A stretch of DNA of 22,089 bases from a virus. Where the stretch lies: IMG/VR virus record IMGVR_UViG_3300035698_017681, positions 1-22,089 of that record; one strand, written 5' to 3'. The notes under the pieces are model-generated. The model ran no database searches. It was not told where the DNA came from and worked only from the letters and a program-made list of their open reading frames with translations. Below are positions 949-9,516 of this stretch, piece after piece. The stretch's first letter is position 1. Every line of letters starts with the position of its first letter. The position numbers and the translations under genes are program-made.

Positions 949-1359
949 ATGGCAACACTTAACTATGGCAAGAAAATGAAGCTTATGATTGCTGCATTAG
1001 AGAGAAACGCTTGCAATGTATCCCATGCTTGTAAAGCTATCGGGATTTGTAGACAAACTCATTATGACTGGTTGGACAAATCCGACAAGTATAAAAAGGA
1101 GTTTGAAGAGGTTCAAGAATCTTTGATTGATTTTGGAGAGTCTGCTTTAATGACAAATATTAAGAAGGGAAATGTTACAGCTCAGATTTTTTTCTTAAAA
1201 ACTAAAGGTCGAAGTCGTGGGTATATTGAAAAGAGCGTACATATGAATATGGTGCAAAACTCCGCTTCTGATGATTTTGATTTGTCTAAGCTTTCCAATA
1301 AAGAGCTTTTGGTTTATGAGATGATGTTAGAAAAAGTTACCAAAGGTGACGATGAGTAA
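949..1359 (+). CDS. terS: Terminase small subunit
   Basis: A 136-residue DNA-recognition subunit of the packaging motor, which binds the phage pac or cos site and loads the large subunit. Residues about 15-50 form a helix-turn-helix of the type seen in phage small terminases: an ALERNACNVSHACKAIGI segment followed by RQTHYDWL. A predicted helical oligomerisation region (about 50-95) and an acidic C-terminus (EKVTKGDDE) follow. The gene precedes and overlaps the large terminase by 8 bases, the usual order and coupling. Family assignment rests on the HTH pattern, length and position. The binding site itself is not identified, though the elements at 151-209 and 879-916 are candidates. Confidence 0.88.
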   Translation: MATLNYGKKMKLMIAALERNACNVSHACKAIGICRQTHYDWLDKSDKYKKEFEEVQESLIDFGESALMTNIKKGNVTAQIFFLKTKGRSRGYIEKSVHMNMVQNSASDDFDLSKLSNKELLVYEMMLEKVTKGDDE

Positions 1360-2848
1360 ACTTAATTTAATCAAACAGGAAAAAGCTAGAAGATTTCATT
1401 TAGAGTTTTTAAGGTATACATGGCCATATAAATCTATTAAATTTTTAACTGGATTTCATATTGAGGAGATATGCAAGGAGCTTGATAATTCAATAGTTCG
1501 CCTGAGAGAAGGAAAGAGTACCTTTCTAGCCGTCAAAGTTCCATATAGACACCACAAGAGTCAAACTGTAACTAGGTCGCTCCCTCCACACTTCTTGGGC
1601 GAATTCCCTGAAGGTGAAGTTATCGTTACTTCTTACTCAGGAGCTTTAAGTAATGCGTTCTCTCGTGACTCTCGTTCTCTTCTGCAATCGGAAGAATATT
1701 CAAGATTATATTCCAAGACTAAAATATCAAAAGATGTTTCTTCAATTGGCGAATGGGGTACTAATACAACACTTGAAAACGGAAAAGTTTTGACTGGTAA
1801 AACTGCTTGGACTGGTCTAGGCGGATCAGTGACAGGTCGTGGTGGATCTCTCATAATTGTTGATGATTTTCTCAAAGGTAGACAAGATGCGGAGTCAGAG
1901 AATAGTAGGAATACTATTTGGGAAGCATTCTCGAATGATATTATGACTCGTAGAGCAGATCCTTGCATAGTAATCGTCTTGGCGACTCCATGGAATGTTG
2001 ATGATATATTTGGTAGGATTCACGAGAAGATGATTTCAGATCCACTTTTCCCAAAATTCAAAGAACTCAAGTACCCTGCTAGGTCTCCCAAATATTCTAC
2101 TGGATTCTTATTCCCTGAGAAGTTTTCTACAGACTGGTATGAGTCTCAATATGCTACTCTTGGAGCTTATAATGCATCAGGACTACTTGACTGTGATCCT
2201 GAGATGCGTGGTGGAAACTTGCTTCAGGTTGAAGAAGGAATAAACTGGAAGTATGTGGATGGGAAACCGGACGGGTTTGGAGTTATGGGTAGAGGTTGGG
2301 ATTTGGCATCTACTGAGAAGCAGACTCAAAAAGAAGATCCTGATTGGACTGTTGGAGTCAAAGGAGCTATTCGGGTTGAAAGAGTTAGAATACGGGATCT
2401 TGATAAAGATAACCCTATTCCAAATATCGTCCATATCTATATACATGACATTGTGCGAATTAGACAAAACGCACCTAAGCGAGATAGAATTATGGTCAAT
2501 ACCGCCGTCAAGGATGGTCACGGCTGTACTCAATTCGTAGAAGCTGTTGCAGGATATAAAGACACTCTCAAAACAATGCAACATATTTTAAAAGGTGTCT
2601 CCCGTGTAAGAAGGAGTGATTTAGAGGGAGACAAGATAGTCAAGGTGTCTACTCATTTAGAAGTTCCATTTGAGAATGGGACAGTGTTTGTAAACAAGAA
2701 TATACCAGCACCAATACTAAAAGAATTTTGGAAATGCCTCAAAGGTTTTCCCTCTCTTTTGCATGATGATGATGTTGATGCGCTAGCAATTATGGTTGGT
2801 GGATTAAATAGAGGCGGTGCAAGAGCTGACTATTTAGGTACAATTTAG
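1352..2848 (+). CDS. terL: Terminase large subunit (packaging ATPase and nuclease)
   Basis: A 498-residue motor ATPase that drives DNA into the prohead and cuts the concatemer. Near residues 62-70 is the Walker A region, VKVPYRHHKS, in the place of the usual PPRHGKS. Walker B, LIIVDD, lies near 167-172, and an LATPWN segment that may be the coupling motif near 210-215. The RNase H-like nuclease shows GWDLAS near 315-320, an acidic EDPDW near 328-332 and a late DDDVDAL close to the C-terminus, consistent with the metal-binding aspartates. I prefer the ATG at 1352, which follows AAAGG at 1342-1346 with normal spacing; the in-frame GTG at 1346 overlaps that ribosome site. Oddity: the P-loop glycine is replaced by histidine. 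Confidence 0.95.
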   Translation: MSKLNLIKQEKARRFHLEFLRYTWPYKSIKFLTGFHIEEICKELDNSIVRLREGKSTFLAVKVPYRHHKSQTVTRSLPPHFLGEFPEGEVIVTSYSGALSNAFSRDSRSLLQSEEYSRLYSKTKISKDVSSIGEWGTNTTLENGKVLTGKTAWTGLGGSVTGRGGSLIIVDDFLKGRQDAESENSRNTIWEAFSNDIMTRRADPCIVIVLATPWNVDDIFGRIHEKMISDPLFPKFKELKYPARSPKYSTGFLFPEKFSTDWYESQYATLGAYNASGLLDCDPEMRGGNLLQVEEGINWKYVDGKPDGFGVMGRGWDLASTEKQTQKEDPDWTVGVKGAIRVERVRIRDLDKDNPIPNIVHIYIHDIVRIRQNAPKRDRIMVNTAVKDGHGCTQFVEAVAGYKDTLKTMQHILKGVSRVRRSDLEGDKIVKVSTHLEVPFENGTVFVNKNIPAPILKEFWKCLKGFPSLLHDDDVDALAIMVGGLNRGGARADYLGTI

Positions 2849-2852
2849 TATA

Positions 2853-2872
2853 TATTAATCATTAAGTAATCA
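2853..2872 (+). repeat. AT-rich direct repeat, copy 1 (left of tRNA-like structure)
   Basis: The 20-base sequence TATTAATCATTAAGTAATCA occurs here and again, identically, at 2989-3008, on the two sides of the tRNA-like structure. Within it TAATCATTA is itself repeated about 11 bases on (2867-2875). A related, degenerate cluster lies at 9415-9492. Confidence 0.8.
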
Positions 2873-2904
2873 TTAGATTATATAGATTAATCATAAATAA
2901 AAAC

Positions 2905-2988
2905 GCCTTAGTAACTCAGCTGGCAGAGTGTGGGTAATTCTAAAAAAGATTTGCCTAGTCGTCGGGGGTTCAAGTCCCTCTCAAGGCT
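2905..2988 (+). ncRNA. tRNA-like structure with an enlarged anticodon arm
   Basis: The sequence folds as a tRNA cloverleaf: acceptor 2905-2911 with 2981-2987 (one A-C mismatch, one G-T), D stem ACTC/GAGT (2914-2917, 2926-2929) with loop AGCTGGCA, and T stem 2964-2968/2976-2980 with loop TTCAAGT. The conserved core bases T8, A14, G15, G18, G19, A21, G53, T54, T55, C56, A58 and C61 are all present. The anticodon arm is not normal: 2931-2957 is 27 nt instead of 17 and forms an 11-step hairpin (two G-T pairs, one T-T mismatch) capped by five A. There is no standard 7-base loop and so no identifiable anticodon. The 3' end is TTA, with no encoded CCA. It lies between terL and the portal gene, in the same direction. 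A decoding tRNA is unlikely; a tRNA mimic, a decayed tRNA or an RNA-processing signal are possible. Confidence 0.7.
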
Positions 2989-3008
2989 TATTAATCATTA
3001 AGTAATCA
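2989..3008 (+). repeat. AT-rich direct repeat, copy 2 (right of tRNA-like structure)
   Basis: Identical over 20 bases to 2853-2872 and starting one base after the tRNA-like structure ends. It is followed by a partial further unit (CACTAAGTAA) and then by the ribosome binding site AAGGA (3021-3025) of the portal gene. Confidence 0.8.
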
Positions 3009-3031
3009 CTAAGTAACATGAAGGAATTATT

Positions 3032-4375
3032 ATGGCAAAAGTAAAATCAAGGATGGATGGGCTGAGTAATGTACTCAGTGGAAAAGGCGACCTATTCGAC
3101 CAAGAGAAATACATAAGACCGGCTAAACCAAAAGACTTTGACGATGAATTTGTCAGGGATCTTTACCGAGGTACCGGAATAGCTTCAGCAATTATAGATA
3201 GACCTGTTGATCGGTCTATTCGTGTTGGTTGGACGCTTCGTATGGACGATCAGGATGTTTTAGTTAAACAGCTTAAAGAACTTCGCTTTGTTAGGCATCT
3301 TAAAAAGGCTCTCAAATATGAGAGGATTTATGGAGGTGCATTAATTGTATTTGGATTGAATGATTCCGGAAGCTTAGAAGCTCCTCTCTCTGATGGTTAT
3401 TCTAAAGGGATTGACTTTATTCGAGTATATCGTAGAGATCAAGTAAGAAAAAATCTTCTTGTTGAAGACGATCAAAGTCGTAGATTTGGATTACCTGAGA
3501 CTTACGAGATTCACGCTACAGGTTACGATCCGTACAAAGTTCATTACACTCGATGCATTGAGTTAGAAGGTGAACCTGCTGATGAAGATACAATGCTTGA
3601 AAATGATGGTTGGGGGGATTCAATTTTTGTCTCAACATGGGATTGCATAACTCGGTACGATGATACTCTTGACACAATGAAGAGGATTGCAAATAACTTT
3701 GTCAATCTGTCAATTGAGATAGATGGTTTATTTGATGCTATTAGAAATGGTGAAGAAAACCATATCCGGAAAAGATTAGCTGTATTCAATGCTACAATGC
3801 ATTCGATGAATTTTGCTATTCATGATAAAGATGAGAAGATTGATAAAATTGCATCTAATGTCTCCGGATTGAAAGATATTTTTCAAGCTTTTGCAGATGA
3901 TGCGAAAACATCTTCAGGAATACCTTCAAGAGTTTTGTTTGGAACTCAATTAGGTGGAATTGGAAATACCGGATCGGGTGAAACTAATGATTGGGCTGAG
4001 TACTTGGAAGATTTTATAAATGAGAAGGTAATGTATATCATTGAAGATACGCTAAAGTATATGACTTCTAATGATCCAGTTGTTGCTTTCAATGATGTAA
4101 TTACTCCGACGGCAAAAGAGAAAGCTGAGATTTATAAACTGACTTCAGAAGGTGATGAGAAGAACGTAGTAAATAGTATTCTCACTCCTGAAGAGTGTCG
4201 TCAATCTCATTACGGTGGAGATGAGTTTTCATTAGATATTAAAATAGACAAAAAAAATAATGATATTCCATTCACTCCACAGAATGTAAAATCTGCAAAA
4301 GGTGATAAATTACTTGAGATAGCAAACAATGACAAGTTAATCACTGATGATATTATTGAAACTGAGGAGTCTTAG
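3032..4375 (+). CDS. Portal protein (DUF1073 family)
   Basis: A 447-residue portal, which forms the dodecameric DNA gateway at one capsid vertex and docks the terminase. The N-terminal segment FVRDLYRGTGIASAIIDRP (about residues 41-59) followed by RSIRVGWTLR is typical of the DUF1073 group of portals, as are ERIYGGALIVFGL (near 98-110) and the VHYTRCIELEG segment (near 171-181), which matches the IHPSR-type motif of portals. The second half includes GLKDIFQAFADDAKTSSGIPSRVLFG and a helical stretch before the acidic C-terminus. An ATG follows AAGGA with good spacing. The gene sits after terL and directly before the MuF-like head protein, the usual order. Confidence 0.9.
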   Translation: MAKVKSRMDGLSNVLSGKGDLFDQEKYIRPAKPKDFDDEFVRDLYRGTGIASAIIDRPVDRSIRVGWTLRMDDQDVLVKQLKELRFVRHLKKALKYERIYGGALIVFGLNDSGSLEAPLSDGYSKGIDFIRVYRRDQVRKNLLVEDDQSRRFGLPETYEIHATGYDPYKVHYTRCIELEGEPADEDTMLENDGWGDSIFVSTWDCITRYDDTLDTMKRIANNFVNLSIEIDGLFDAIRNGEENHIRKRLAVFNATMHSMNFAIHDKDEKIDKIASNVSGLKDIFQAFADDAKTSSGIPSRVLFGTQLGGIGNTGSGETNDWAEYLEDFINEKVMYIIEDTLKYMTSNDPVVAFNDVITPTAKEKAEIYKLTSEGDEKNVVNSILTPEECRQSHYGGDEFSLDIKIDKKNNDIPFTPQNVKSAKGDKLLEIANNDKLITDDIIETEES

Positions 4376-5628: not shown

Positions 5629-6801
5629 ATGAAAAGAGTGATGAGAGGTGACAGAATAGAATTTCCTCATGGCTATACTACCAAAGAAGGATTTATTCAA
5701 GCTCATGCAATTGTTACTAGAACAGGTGTATTTAAATATCTAAATACAGATGGATCTATCCGTAGAGAGCTTCGTCACCCTGATGATGTTTTCAAACAGG
5801 AAAGTCTTGATACTCTTCGCATGATTCCAGTTACAATAAACCATCCTTCTGAGTTAGTAGATTCTGAAAATGCTTCTAGATATTCAGTTGGATCTACTGG
5901 AGACAATTACAATATTGATGGAAAATTCGTAATGTCAAGCCTTGCAGTCCATAAACAAGACGGTGTAGATGCTATTGAGAATGGAAAAAGTCAACTCTCT
6001 CTTGGGTATGAAATAACTCCAATTGAAGAAGTTGGTGAATACAATGGTGAGCGATATGATATTAGGCAAACTGAAATCGAATATAATCATCTAGCAATAG
6101 TTGATCTTGCTCGTGCCGGAAAAGAAGCATCTGTCAAGATGGATAGCGGAAGCGAATTTAGTGTTTCAAATGATATAATCAAACAGGTGTCAAAAAATGA
6201 TGATACCAATACCCCTAACAATAAACCAAAGGAGATAACTATGAAAATAGCTGTAATTGATGGAGTTGCGGTTCAGGTTGAAGATGCCGAAGAATCTAAG
6301 CTCTTGAAAGCGGTTTCTGCAATCACTCAAAAGGTGACTGATGCGGAAAATGCTACTTCTGCACTTCAGGCGAAGTTTGATGCGCTTGAAGTCGACAAGA
6401 AGAAAGTGGATGCTGAATTAGTTGAAGCAAAAAGCGATTCTGTTATGCAGGGAAAGATCACGGCTCGTGTTGATCTTGAAAGCAAAGCAAGAAAAGTTGT
6501 TGGAGATGAGATAGACTTCTCGGGAAAAACTGATATGGAAATCAAAAAAATGGTTATCCTAAAAGTTGATTCTGAAGCTAAAGTTGATAGCTCAGATTCT
6601 TATGTTGAAGCGTATTTCGATATTGCTTGCACAAAAGATGTTAAAGCTGATGAAGATATTCCTGCCGAAAGCGGAACTTCAAGTCAGAGAAAAACTGCCA
6701 ACACCAAGGTTGTTGCAGACGAAACCAATAGTATCGTATTTGATTCTGAAGATGAAAGTCGAAATGCTATGATGAACCAATTTGCAGGAGGTAAAGCATA
6801 A
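5629..6801 (+). CDS. Prohead protease-scaffold protein (DUF2213 family)
   Basis: A 390-residue protein. Residues 1-172 match the DUF2213 group found between portal and capsid genes in DUF1073 phages, thought to be the prohead protease. NHP (71-73), a serine in SQLSLGY (121-127) and HLAIVDLARAGK (154-165) are the candidate catalytic and core segments. Residues about 205-275 form a coiled coil (AVSAITQKVTDAENATSALQ and onward), as expected of a scaffold, followed by an acidic C-terminal tail. The start at 5629 lies 9 bases after GGAG (5616-5619). The ATG at 5623 is too close to it, and an in-frame ATT at 5596 upstream lies in the terminator-like hairpin. An internal start at 6241 probably yields the scaffold part alone. 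Exact protease chemistry is inferred. Confidence 0.82.
   Translation: MKRVMRGDRIEFPHGYTTKEGFIQAHAIVTRTGVFKYLNTDGSIRRELRHPDDVFKQESLDTLRMIPVTINHPSELVDSENASRYSVGSTGDNYNIDGKFVMSSLAVHKQDGVDAIENGKSQLSLGYEITPIEEVGEYNGERYDIRQTEIEYNHLAIVDLARAGKEASVKMDSGSEFSVSNDIIKQVSKNDDTNTPNNKPKEITMKIAVIDGVAVQVEDAEESKLLKAVSAITQKVTDAENATSALQAKFDALEVDKKKVDAELVEAKSDSVMQGKITARVDLESKARKVVGDEIDFSGKTDMEIKKMVILKVDSEAKVDSSDSYVEAYFDIACTKDVKADEDIPAESGTSSQRKTANTKVVADETNSIVFDSEDESRNAMMNQFAGGKA
6241..6801 (+). CDS. Internal in-frame scaffold protein (nested within the protease-scaffold gene)
   Basis: An ATG at codon 205 of the longer gene is preceded by AAAGGAG (6228-6234) with a 6-base spacer, as good a ribosome site as any true gene start in the window. 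The product would be 186 residues, beginning MKIAVIDGVAVQVEDAEESK and comprising the coiled coil and acidic tail without the protease. Lambda C/Nu3 and related phages are known to make scaffold from such nested starts. The preceding linker (about residues 185-204, rich in N, D, T, P and K) looks like a domain boundary. The ribosome site is seen; use of the start is inferred. Confidence 0.65.
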   Translation: MKIAVIDGVAVQVEDAEESKLLKAVSAITQKVTDAENATSALQAKFDALEVDKKKVDAELVEAKSDSVMQGKITARVDLESKARKVVGDEIDFSGKTDMEIKKMVILKVDSEAKVDSSDSYVEAYFDIACTKDVKADEDIPAESGTSSQRKTANTKVVADETNSIVFDSEDESRNAMMNQFAGGKA

Positions 6802-7511
6802 TGGGTTACGGAACAGATATGACAAAAGCAGTTGCAGGAATGCAGGCTGACTCTGGAAACAGTTACAATGAATCCGGCAAAGTTGCCAAAGAACAAGTCG
6901 ATTTTGGTATAGGTGTCGTAAAAGGAACGGCTTCTCATCAGTTGAGAGAAGCAATTCAGGATGTGTCAAATATTATTTTTGATGCAGTATTTGTTACATC
7001 TAATGTGATTAATATGAAAATTAATAATGTTGATGTAGCTTCGCAAACTTTCACTACAGATCAGGCTACTACTGCTGAAGCTCTACGTGTTAAGATTCTT
7101 GCTCTTGCTTCAGTTACAGCTTGTACTTTTGATGCAACTAGCAAAACTTATACTGTAACAACTCTTGGTGTACCTGCTATTGTAACTGATGTGGCAGTAA
7201 CAGGAGGATCTACACAAGCAGGGTCTACTCTTGCTGTTGGTTCTACTGATCTATTTAGAGGAGTTGCACTTCAGATTCACAATGAAGATGGTGTTTACGC
7301 TGATGGTGATGCTGTGACATTCAAAAGACAGGGTCGTGTTTGGGTTCCTGTTTCTGAATCTGTATTAGAAGATGCATCTGCATACATTGATATGTCAGAT
7401 AGCGATAAACGAATGACTGACGATTCTACTAACGGACTTGCAGTTCCTACCGGGGTTTTTCGTTCTGAAGATGAAAATGGTCTTGCCCTTCTTGAAATTA
7501 ACCTTCCATAA
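6801..7511 (+). CDS. Putative capsid decoration / structural cement protein
   Basis: A 236-residue protein between scaffold and major capsid genes, where tailed phages carry the cement protein that stabilises the expanded capsid. The first 55 residues and the last 90 (from about LFRGVALQIHNEDGVYADGDAVTFKRQGRVWVPVSE) resemble the cement/DUF2190-type beta-barrel pattern. About residues 55-145 look like an inserted, threonine- and valine-rich beta domain (INNVDVASQTFTTDQATTAE and following). It starts with ATG overlapping the previous TAA by one base, behind AGGAGGT (6785-6791), the strongest ribosome site in the window, which suits a protein needed in many copies. Family assignment is from position and pattern. 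Confidence 0.65.
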   Translation: MGYGTDMTKAVAGMQADSGNSYNESGKVAKEQVDFGIGVVKGTASHQLREAIQDVSNIIFDAVFVTSNVINMKINNVDVASQTFTTDQATTAEALRVKILALASVTACTFDATSKTYTVTTLGVPAIVTDVAVTGGSTQAGSTLAVGSTDLFRGVALQIHNEDGVYADGDAVTFKRQGRVWVPVSESVLEDASAYIDMSDSDKRMTDDSTNGLAVPTGVFRSEDENGLALLEINLP

Positions 7512-7527
7512 TTAGGAGAAAAATATA

Positions 7528-8463
7528 ATGGCTAAACTTAAATTACCTGTCATGGATGGGTACAATATGGATGCAGGAACTACTGCATTCACAGAAAGAG
7601 AACTTACTTATGTTCGTAAAAAGATTTACGAAACACCTGTAAGAGCTCTTAAGGCTCGTAAGCTTTTACCTATCAGTTACGAGATTCCTTCATACGCTAA
7701 AAATCACACTTACAAAGTGATAGAGCGTTTTGGTATGATGAAACTTATCGAGTCTTATGCTGATAACCTTCCGCTTGCTACTGTTGGTAAGATTGAAGTT
7801 ACTGCAAAGGTTCGCGCATTTGGTAATGCTTACGAATACTCAGTAGATGATATAGATGCGGCTCAAGCTGGCCTTACAAAGCTATCATCTGAGCAGGGTA
7901 TTGCCGTTCGCAGAGCTTGGGAAGAGTTGCTTGAAAAAGTTACTTGGATCGGTGATGAGTCTTACGGTATTATCGGATTGCTTTATAATCCAAATATCAC
8001 AATTATCCAAGCCCCTACTGGTGACTGGACAACTGCTACAGCACAAGACATCTATGATGATCTTGTTGCACTTAATGATGCAGTTTTTGACGCTACAGCA
8101 GGTCAAGAAGAGATAGATCATATCCTCCTTGCTTCTAATCGCTGGTCAAAAGCTAAGAATACAATTCTGTATAACAATAAAACGGTTATGGCAGTATTCA
8201 AGGAAAATTACGAAGGTGTAACATTGGATCATATCAAAGAACTGAACGATATGAGCCCACGTCCTTCTGCAATTGCTGGCACTGAGAATTGTGCTTTTGC
8301 ATATATCAAAGCGGTAGAGTATCTCGAGCTTGAGATACCTATGGAATTTAAGCAGATGCCTCCACAGGCTAAGAACCTTGCTTTTATAACAAACTGTTAT
8401 GCAAAAACAGCGGGCGTTACTGTAAGATACCCTCTTACAATGGCAATAATGGAAGCGATCTAA
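7528..8463 (+). CDS. Major capsid protein (DUF2184 family)
   Basis: A 311-residue HK97-fold capsid subunit of the DUF2184 group, which co-occurs with DUF1073 portals and DUF2213 proteins. Visible features are the N-terminal arm (FTERELTYVRKKIYETPVRALKARKLLP), VRAFGNAYEYSVDDIDAAQ near 91-110, RRAWEELLEKVTWIGD near 128-143 and the C-terminal segment MEFKQMPPQAKNLAFITNCYAKTAGVTVRYPLTM. A good ribosome site (AGGAG, 7514-7518) precedes the ATG. It is followed at once by a strong intrinsic terminator, as expected for the end of a highly expressed capsid cassette. No N-terminal propeptide is obvious. Confidence 0.9.
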   Translation: MAKLKLPVMDGYNMDAGTTAFTERELTYVRKKIYETPVRALKARKLLPISYEIPSYAKNHTYKVIERFGMMKLIESYADNLPLATVGKIEVTAKVRAFGNAYEYSVDDIDAAQAGLTKLSSEQGIAVRRAWEELLEKVTWIGDESYGIIGLLYNPNITIIQAPTGDWTTATAQDIYDDLVALNDAVFDATAGQEEIDHILLASNRWSKAKNTILYNNKTVMAVFKENYEGVTLDHIKELNDMSPRPSAIAGTENCAFAYIKAVEYLELEIPMEFKQMPPQAKNLAFITNCYAKTAGVTVRYPLTMAIMEAI

Positions 8464-8489: not shown

Positions 8490-8523
8490 AACCTCTCGGA
8501 TCGATGTATTCGAGAGGTTTTTT
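8490..8523 (+). terminator. Intrinsic terminator after the major capsid gene
   Basis: AACCTCTCG (8490-8498) and CGAGAGGTT (8511-8519) form a perfect 9-base stem with a 12-base loop, and the T-run extends to 8523. Stem quality, GC content against the AT-rich background and the T-tract make this the clearest terminator in the window, 27 bases after the capsid stop. Confidence 0.92.
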
Positions 8524-8566
8524 AAAAAGAACTATAAAATTATTTTATTAATCGGAGAAAATTAAA

Positions 8567-9018: not shown

Positions 9019-9417
9019 ATGACTCCTGAAAATCTAGCACTGACTAAAGAATATGTTGATTTTCGTGATAGCACTGTCGATCAGGATAGTGCTCTTTTCA
9101 CGAGTGCAATTAAGTTTGGAGAGGCTCGACTTTCCGAATCTGTTTTTAATACAGTCTATTATCAGGCAATAGGTCTTTTCATTTTACATCATTTTGAGTT
9201 GAAGAAAATTTTAGCTGAGAACGGAACCTCTCAAGCCGGAACAATTCAATCTGAAAAAGAAGATTTGCTTGAGGTGAAAATGAATATTTCATCTTCAAAC
9301 AAAAAAGGAAATGATGATTATGACCGAACAGGATACGGTCGAGAATTGAATACTTTATCAAGAGAAAAGATAAGTGGGCGAACATTTATGAATAGCAGAA
9401 TGCTTGTTGCAAGCTAA
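9019..9417 (+). CDS. Head-tail connector protein (DUF4054 family)
   Basis: A 132-residue protein of the DUF4054 type, an adaptor that sits under the portal. Shared features are the helical N-terminus with FTSAIKFGEARLSESVF (about 26-42), YYQAIGLFILHHFELKK (about 47-63), a serine/glycine linker, a strand-like segment (LLEVKMNISS) and the RTGYGRELNTLSRE segment near the end. It lies two genes after the capsid, the typical place. The stop codon is embedded in an AT-rich repeat cluster that fills the next 99 bases. Confidence 0.75.
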   Translation: MTPENLALTKEYVDFRDSTVDQDSALFTSAIKFGEARLSESVFNTVYYQAIGLFILHHFELKKILAENGTSQAGTIQSEKEDLLEVKMNISSSNKKGNDDYDRTGYGRELNTLSREKISGRTFMNSRMLVAS

Positions 9418-9516
9418 TCATTAGACTATCATTAATTAATCATTAGGTAATAATAAGCTAACCCACATTATATTTAATTATATATAGATTAAATTAAATT
9501 AAGTAAGAAAGAAGTT
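9415..9516 (+). repeat. AT-rich repeat cluster related to the repeats around the tRNA-like structure
   Basis: This intergenic stretch contains TAATCATTA-type units (9415-9423, 9438-9446), ATTAATCATTAGGTAAT (9435-9451) and the 12-mer TATATAGATTAA (9481-9492), which also occurs at 2879-2890. It is otherwise nearly pure A+T and non-coding, with a modest GAAAG ribosome site for the next gene at its right end. A promoter may lie here, since TATATT/TATAAT-like runs abound, but no convincing -35/-10 pair can be singled out. Confidence 0.55.

Follow-up and report, generated by a model that had tools for sequence, protein, structure and literature searches.

Several described RNAs invite comparison with the element reported here. 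T4 species 1 and 2 are stable RNAs of T-even phages with tRNA-like parts and an unknown role, and the CI RNA of phage P4 is a phage RNA processed by RNase P. In animal nuclear RNAs, mascRNA-type elements adopt a tRNA-like fold that lacks an anticodon and provides an RNase P cut site within a longer transcript. RNase P itself binds the stack of T arm and acceptor and measures from the elbow, with the anticodon lying outside its recognition (PMC4919913), and it processes phage RNAs that are not tRNAs, among them the M3 and C4 RNAs (PMC11143913).

The window analysed here, a 22,089-nt stretch of viral DNA, encodes a tRNA-like RNA between the genes for the terminase large subunit (terL) and the portal protein (Table 1). 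With phage elongator tRNA genes it shares the architecture of D arm, T arm, and acceptor, as well as U8, G18 G19, the T-loop bases, and a sense-direction intergenic placement, but it differs from them in its 27-nt arm without anticodon or U33, its mismatched acceptor, and its stand-alone position. Like M3 and the antisense C4 RNA (PMC11143913), it is a small phage RNA outside the tRNAs and a possible RNase P substrate; unlike them, it keeps a near-complete tRNA cloverleaf, and its cleavage is a prediction. T4 species 1 and 2 are longer and lie in the T4 tRNA cluster, and the comparison with them is one of description. The anticodon-less fold shared with mascRNA-type elements is an analogy of mechanism only.

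Table 1. Features of the tRNA-like RNA and its surroundings, in window coordinates.
Feature	Position	Strand	Description	Basis
tRNA-like RNA without anticodon	2905–2988	+	cloverleaf is the minimum-energy fold	Rfam tRNA, 30.1 bits (cut-off 29); fold
Acceptor, 5' strand	2905–2911	+	partner 2981–2987; A6.C67 mismatch, G7.U66 wobble	read from sequence
D arm	2914–2929	+	4 pairs; G18 G19	sequence and fold
G26	2930	+		read from sequence
27-nt arm replacing the 17-nt anticodon arm	2931–2957	+	7 + 3 pairs, A5 loop; no U33 or anticodon	fold
Variable loop		+	6 nt, between the 27-nt arm and the T arm	sequence
T arm	2964–2980	+	5 pairs, UUCAAGU loop	sequence, fold, Rfam tRNA match
U73 (discriminator base)	2988	+		read from sequence
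terL, upstream neighbour	1346–2848	+	terminase large subunit gene	PHROG 38, E 1.3e-50
Portal gene, downstream neighbour	3032–4375	+	AAGGA ribosome-binding site just 5'	PHROG 146, E 1.3e-72
Direct repeat, copy 1: TATTAATCATTAAGTAATCA	2853–2872	+	32 nt before the tRNA-like RNA	20/20 identity with copy 2
Direct repeat, copy 2	2989–3008	+	immediately 3' of the discriminator base	

The cloverleaf is obtained when 2905–2988 is folded alone, the seven and three pairs of the long arm being stacked around a U.U mismatch. The Rfam tRNA model (RF00005) passes its cut-off when a small stretch is searched with permissive filters; with default filters over the whole window the element is not reported, and ARAGORN calls no tRNA at this position. 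The D and T arms carry the conserved core bases, and the T arm is the same as in many bacterial tRNAs. The acceptor falls short of a canonical 7-bp stem, with five Watson-Crick pairs besides its mismatch and wobble, and in place of a canonical 7-nt anticodon loop there is a 17-nt apical part with A at the expected position 33. The boundaries, arm layout, and missing anticodon given by the first-pass annotation are all borne out by sequence, fold, and Rfam score, as is its reading of the 27-nt arm as a long hairpin capped by five A; its description of everything outside the anticodon arm as textbook holds for the D and T arms and the core bases, but not for the acceptor. When the window and 53 related loci were scanned with loose cloverleaf criteria, the only other match was one ordinary tRNA(Ala), found in two loci, and a chance tRNA look-alike is therefore unlikely. 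The element is a real tRNA-like RNA that does not decode and whose function is uncertain. The 6-nt variable loop, with the expansion sitting in the anticodon arm, is incompatible with a class II tRNA (Leu, Ser, Tyr) or tRNA-Sec, and a tmRNA is rejected by the length of only 84 nt and a negative ARAGORN tmRNA search.

The 27-nt arm as a whole folds better than each of 200 shuffled versions (200/200; z = -3.97). Once its basal 5-bp stem is given, the frequency of extra pairing is 1% in mononucleotide shuffles, 6.4% in dinucleotide shuffles, and 5.6% in 17-mers drawn at random from this genome, which makes the extension only mildly unlikely by chance (1–6%). The earlier reasoning that a decaying tRNA would not gain a longer helix is therefore weak, and the acceptor is one pair short as well.

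The AT-rich spacer that holds the element spans 183 nt within a late-gene operon, and consensus searches found no promoter or terminator at the tRNA-like RNA. Further downstream, amid the late genes, a clear stem-loop with a T-run follows the gene ending at 8463 (8493–8525) and resembles an intrinsic terminator. AT-rich repeats of the TAATCATTA type, about 11 bases apart, occur in two spacers (2853–3019 and 9415–9453), with nine matches against 1.9 expected. Because related repeats are thus present in another spacer, the 20-bp direct repeats around the element may be regulatory rather than an insertion scar. When the full spacer transcript is folded, the 5' acceptor strand is able to pair downstream of the tRNA-like RNA and the acceptor is missing from the centroid structure, in a model that leaves tRNA tertiary contacts outside.

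Among 50,697 phage records we found no DNA relative of the region, and the element itself gave only T-arm or short chance matches; exact scans of viral contigs with its 5' half and with its 3' half retrieved nothing. In bacterial genomes, the search for a parent tRNA matched nothing beyond the generic T arm, which occurs there in tRNAs of several isotypes. The portal as query returned no relative, and 52 loci were found with three aligned terminases. The closest phage relatives, L125 and L135, have 61% terminase identity and a short terL-portal spacer in which a cloverleaf scan finds no tRNA-like RNA. Rfam gave no match in these two or in seven other related loci, and no tRNA match anywhere in the whole records of L125 and L135. 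Absence from the junction in both closest relatives indicates that the element is an acquisition of this phage lineage and not a conserved part of the junction.

We tentatively favor the reading that 2905–2988 encodes an RNA of tRNA origin, acquired and unable to decode, which RNase P could excise from the late transcript. A tRNA gene would have been remodeled into a non-decoding form and acquired by the phage lineage in the terL-portal spacer; on presumed co-transcription with the late genes, its tRNA core would fold, and RNase P would recognize the stack of T arm and acceptor and cut at 2905. Trimming of the 3' end near 2988 would then release a free 84-nt RNA. Cleavage would also split the terL and portal messages apart, leaving the latter with a 43-nt leader and its own ribosome-binding site. 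A benefit to the phage is presumed, and the 84-nt product could be active in cis, through processing, alone or also in trans. Such processing fits the anatomy of the element: since RNase P reads the T-arm/acceptor stack and also acts on phage RNAs other than tRNAs, an anticodon-less tRNA core placed between two genes is what a message-separating cut site might look like. The Rfam score above cut-off, the cloverleaf fold, and the 183-nt gap against the short spacer of the 61% relatives support this reading. Against it stand the A6.C67 mismatch, the low score, the 1–6% chance of the extension, the competing pairings of the acceptor in the longer transcript, and the relatives, which do without a cut site at this junction. 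Moreover, as no relative of the element was found, selection on it cannot be shown.

A wider class emerged from a blind pattern in which the D-loop and T-loop bases were fixed at an abnormal spacing and acceptor pairing was not required. In viral contigs it matched at least 119 loci with a tRNA core and an anticodon arm of abnormal length; by the criterion used, 109 of the 119 listed lack a canonical anticodon arm. A perfect 7-bp acceptor is present in 86/119, against 1.5% expected from shuffled partners. No other tRNA lies within 1.5 kb in 75/119, the remainder being near tRNAs or in tRNA arrays. Among the matches listed, isolated elements are co-directional with their neighbors in 26 of the 29 cases where both flanking genes point the same way (p = 1.5e-5). 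On average, the arm region of 48 non-redundant isolated cases is more stably folded than its shuffles (mean z -1.36, with 29% of the cases below p 0.05); a basal stem is retained in 37 of them. The six long-arm members inspected (L045, L094, L046, L066, L089, and L023) score 44–59 bits with the Rfam tRNA model, and 2905–2988, with its 30 bits and A6.C67 mismatch, ranks below the class members checked. C74 is common at the 3' ends of the class and C75 is not, which suggests normal tRNA-type processing, as ordinary phage tRNAs look alike in this respect; it also led us to reject a CNA-type 3' end as a mark of the class, the ordinary phage tRNAs of these loci having it as well. Of the 119 listed loci, 84 are tRNAs according to ARAGORN, often with an anticodon that is unknown, arbitrary, or implausible.

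The element fits this grouping of our own making, having a tRNA core, no anticodon, an arm longer than 17 nt, and no tRNA cluster nearby, with the tRNA core as the kinship. The first-pass view of a tRNA-like RNA unable to decode is therefore supported, and similar stand-alone elements recur among phages. In open-licence papers we found no description of phage tRNA-like RNAs with replaced anticodon arms. It is possible, although we regard it as doubtful, that phages of many lineages carry an undescribed kind of repeatedly evolved, stand-alone, tRNA-derived RNA, 2905–2988 included, in which the anticodon arm has given way to new hairpins or a pseudoknot and which is selected, made by the host tRNA machinery, and put to uses other than decoding, for instance punctuating messages or interfering with factors that bind tRNA.

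The first-pass annotation lists a packaging element among the possible roles, and the surroundings of the class bear on a role in packaging or assembly linked to terminase and portal. Location between terL and portal would agree with it, as would two members that lie just after terL (L073 and L096) and one just before (L071). Three terL neighbors in about 100 loci are, however, about what chance adjacency gives, and the other neighbors are diverse (transposase, primase, integrase, tail, head); a tie of the class to terminase and portal is not supported. As both closest relatives also lack the element at the same junction, a packaging role tied to the site goes unsupported and is the least probable of the readings considered.

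Covariation in the arm is seen in one subfamily of five sequences (L011, L020, L049, L309, and L310), where three of four pairs of the arm helix show changes on both sides, with every cell paired. The variants CGGC/GCCG, GTGC/GCAC, and TGGC/GCCA covary, and shifting the partner by a single base abolishes the signal. Together with a second helix, which is invariant, the arm may form a pseudoknot; a simple hairpin as the alternative is less well supported. As far as five sequences can, this covariation shows that at least some class members are structured, and it says nothing on 2905–2988. In phage tRNA arrays, eight other members (L022, L025, L029, L044, L053, L070, L091, and L093) replace the anticodon loop by a stem such as AGGGA/UCCCU around a small GCA..UGC hairpin. 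An unannotated stretch that resembles the tRNA-like RNA of the L018 family lies directly 3' of the cI repressor gene in the cultivable Hafnia phage yong2 (L124:4001–4092; MZ516527, 27473–27564).

Applied to cellular genomes, the same pattern matched many archaeal genomes, where intron-bearing tRNAs are expected; with the listed archaea set aside, the 85 cellular matches listed include artefacts of assembly gaps and a conserved Serratia element. This makes the class heterogeneous, which also weighs against our favored reading, and its size should not be over-read, as some members may be intron-bearing or mis-assembled tRNAs. The Serratia-type element is a nearly identical stand-alone tRNA-like RNA at eleven loci (L196:1115–1211, L205:2526–2622, L244, L248, L249, L259, L260, L262, L280, L284, and L292; the titles seen are Serratia), with a CCA end, a 7-bp acceptor, a long AT-rich hairpin for the anticodon arm, 44.6 bits with the Rfam tRNA model, and a conserved promoter-like stretch upstream. 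Five further loci (L186, L226, L276, L278, and L291) hold tRNA(Tyr)-like genes in which C1 pairs with G72 and the loop has extra bases; the titles seen, for L186 and L226, are bacterial MAGs, and these genes may reflect binning contamination from archaea or eukaryotes.

The archaeal matches, from genomes in which tRNA introns are common, and the tRNA(Tyr)-like genes with extra loop bases would agree with 2905–2988 being a functional tRNA with a very short anticodon-loop intron that is removed after transcription. This is highly improbable at our locus, where no U33 or anticodon is readable on either side. The long arm is a plain helix interrupted by a single 1x1 mismatch; it lacks the 4-bp helix with a 3-nt bulge on either side that makes up a bulge-helix-bulge, and an archaeal-type intron tRNA was rejected accordingly.

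For this copy, a pseudogene is nearly as likely as the favored cut site, because the acceptor is damaged, the score is low, the helix extension is possibly chance, and no relative is known. An ordinary phage tRNA gene would have been inserted, disabled by about 10 extra anticodon-loop bases, and left to decay without function. The acceptor mismatch and wobble, the missing anticodon, the absence from relatives, and the silence of ARAGORN all agree with this, as does the extra pairing expected in 1–6% of random loops; the flanking 20-bp direct repeats suggest insertion or duplication. Decay is harder to reconcile with intact D and T arms and core bases, with the 7/7 acceptors held by class members elsewhere, and with the compactness of phage genomes. 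At class level, the acceptors, the anticodon-arm loss, the isolation, and the co-direction instead support a processed RNA, as do the C74-rich ends, the 44–59-bit members, and the covarying helix of the five-member subfamily.

Retention of the tRNA core with loss of decoding, together with the many class members that stand alone, would also be consistent with an RNA that works in trans, as a decoy for or inhibitor of host factors that bind tRNA; defence nucleases or tRNA-modifying toxins recognizing the elbow or acceptor are examples. Yet an RNA without an anticodon would not be the usual bait for anticodon nucleases, the annotated class neighbors, a minority of all neighbors, show no counter-defence link, and nothing specific speaks for a decoy, which we consider improbable.

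Should elements of this kind prove functional, phages would be putting the tRNA body to a second use, as a module for processing or interaction that does no decoding. Such genes are in part misnamed by tRNA finders and are thereby hidden among doubtful tRNAs in annotations, and the defined list of loci makes the question of function testable in cultivable phages. As a pseudogene, 2905–2988 would be nothing unusual; its interest lies less in itself than in the scattered, poorly annotated phage tRNA-like RNAs to which it points.

A further observation concerns a terminase gene at another locus (L002:4959–7460), whose reading frame continues across an insert that resembles an intein at its ends; a second, overlapping frame (6677–7333) encodes a putative HNH-type endonuclease.
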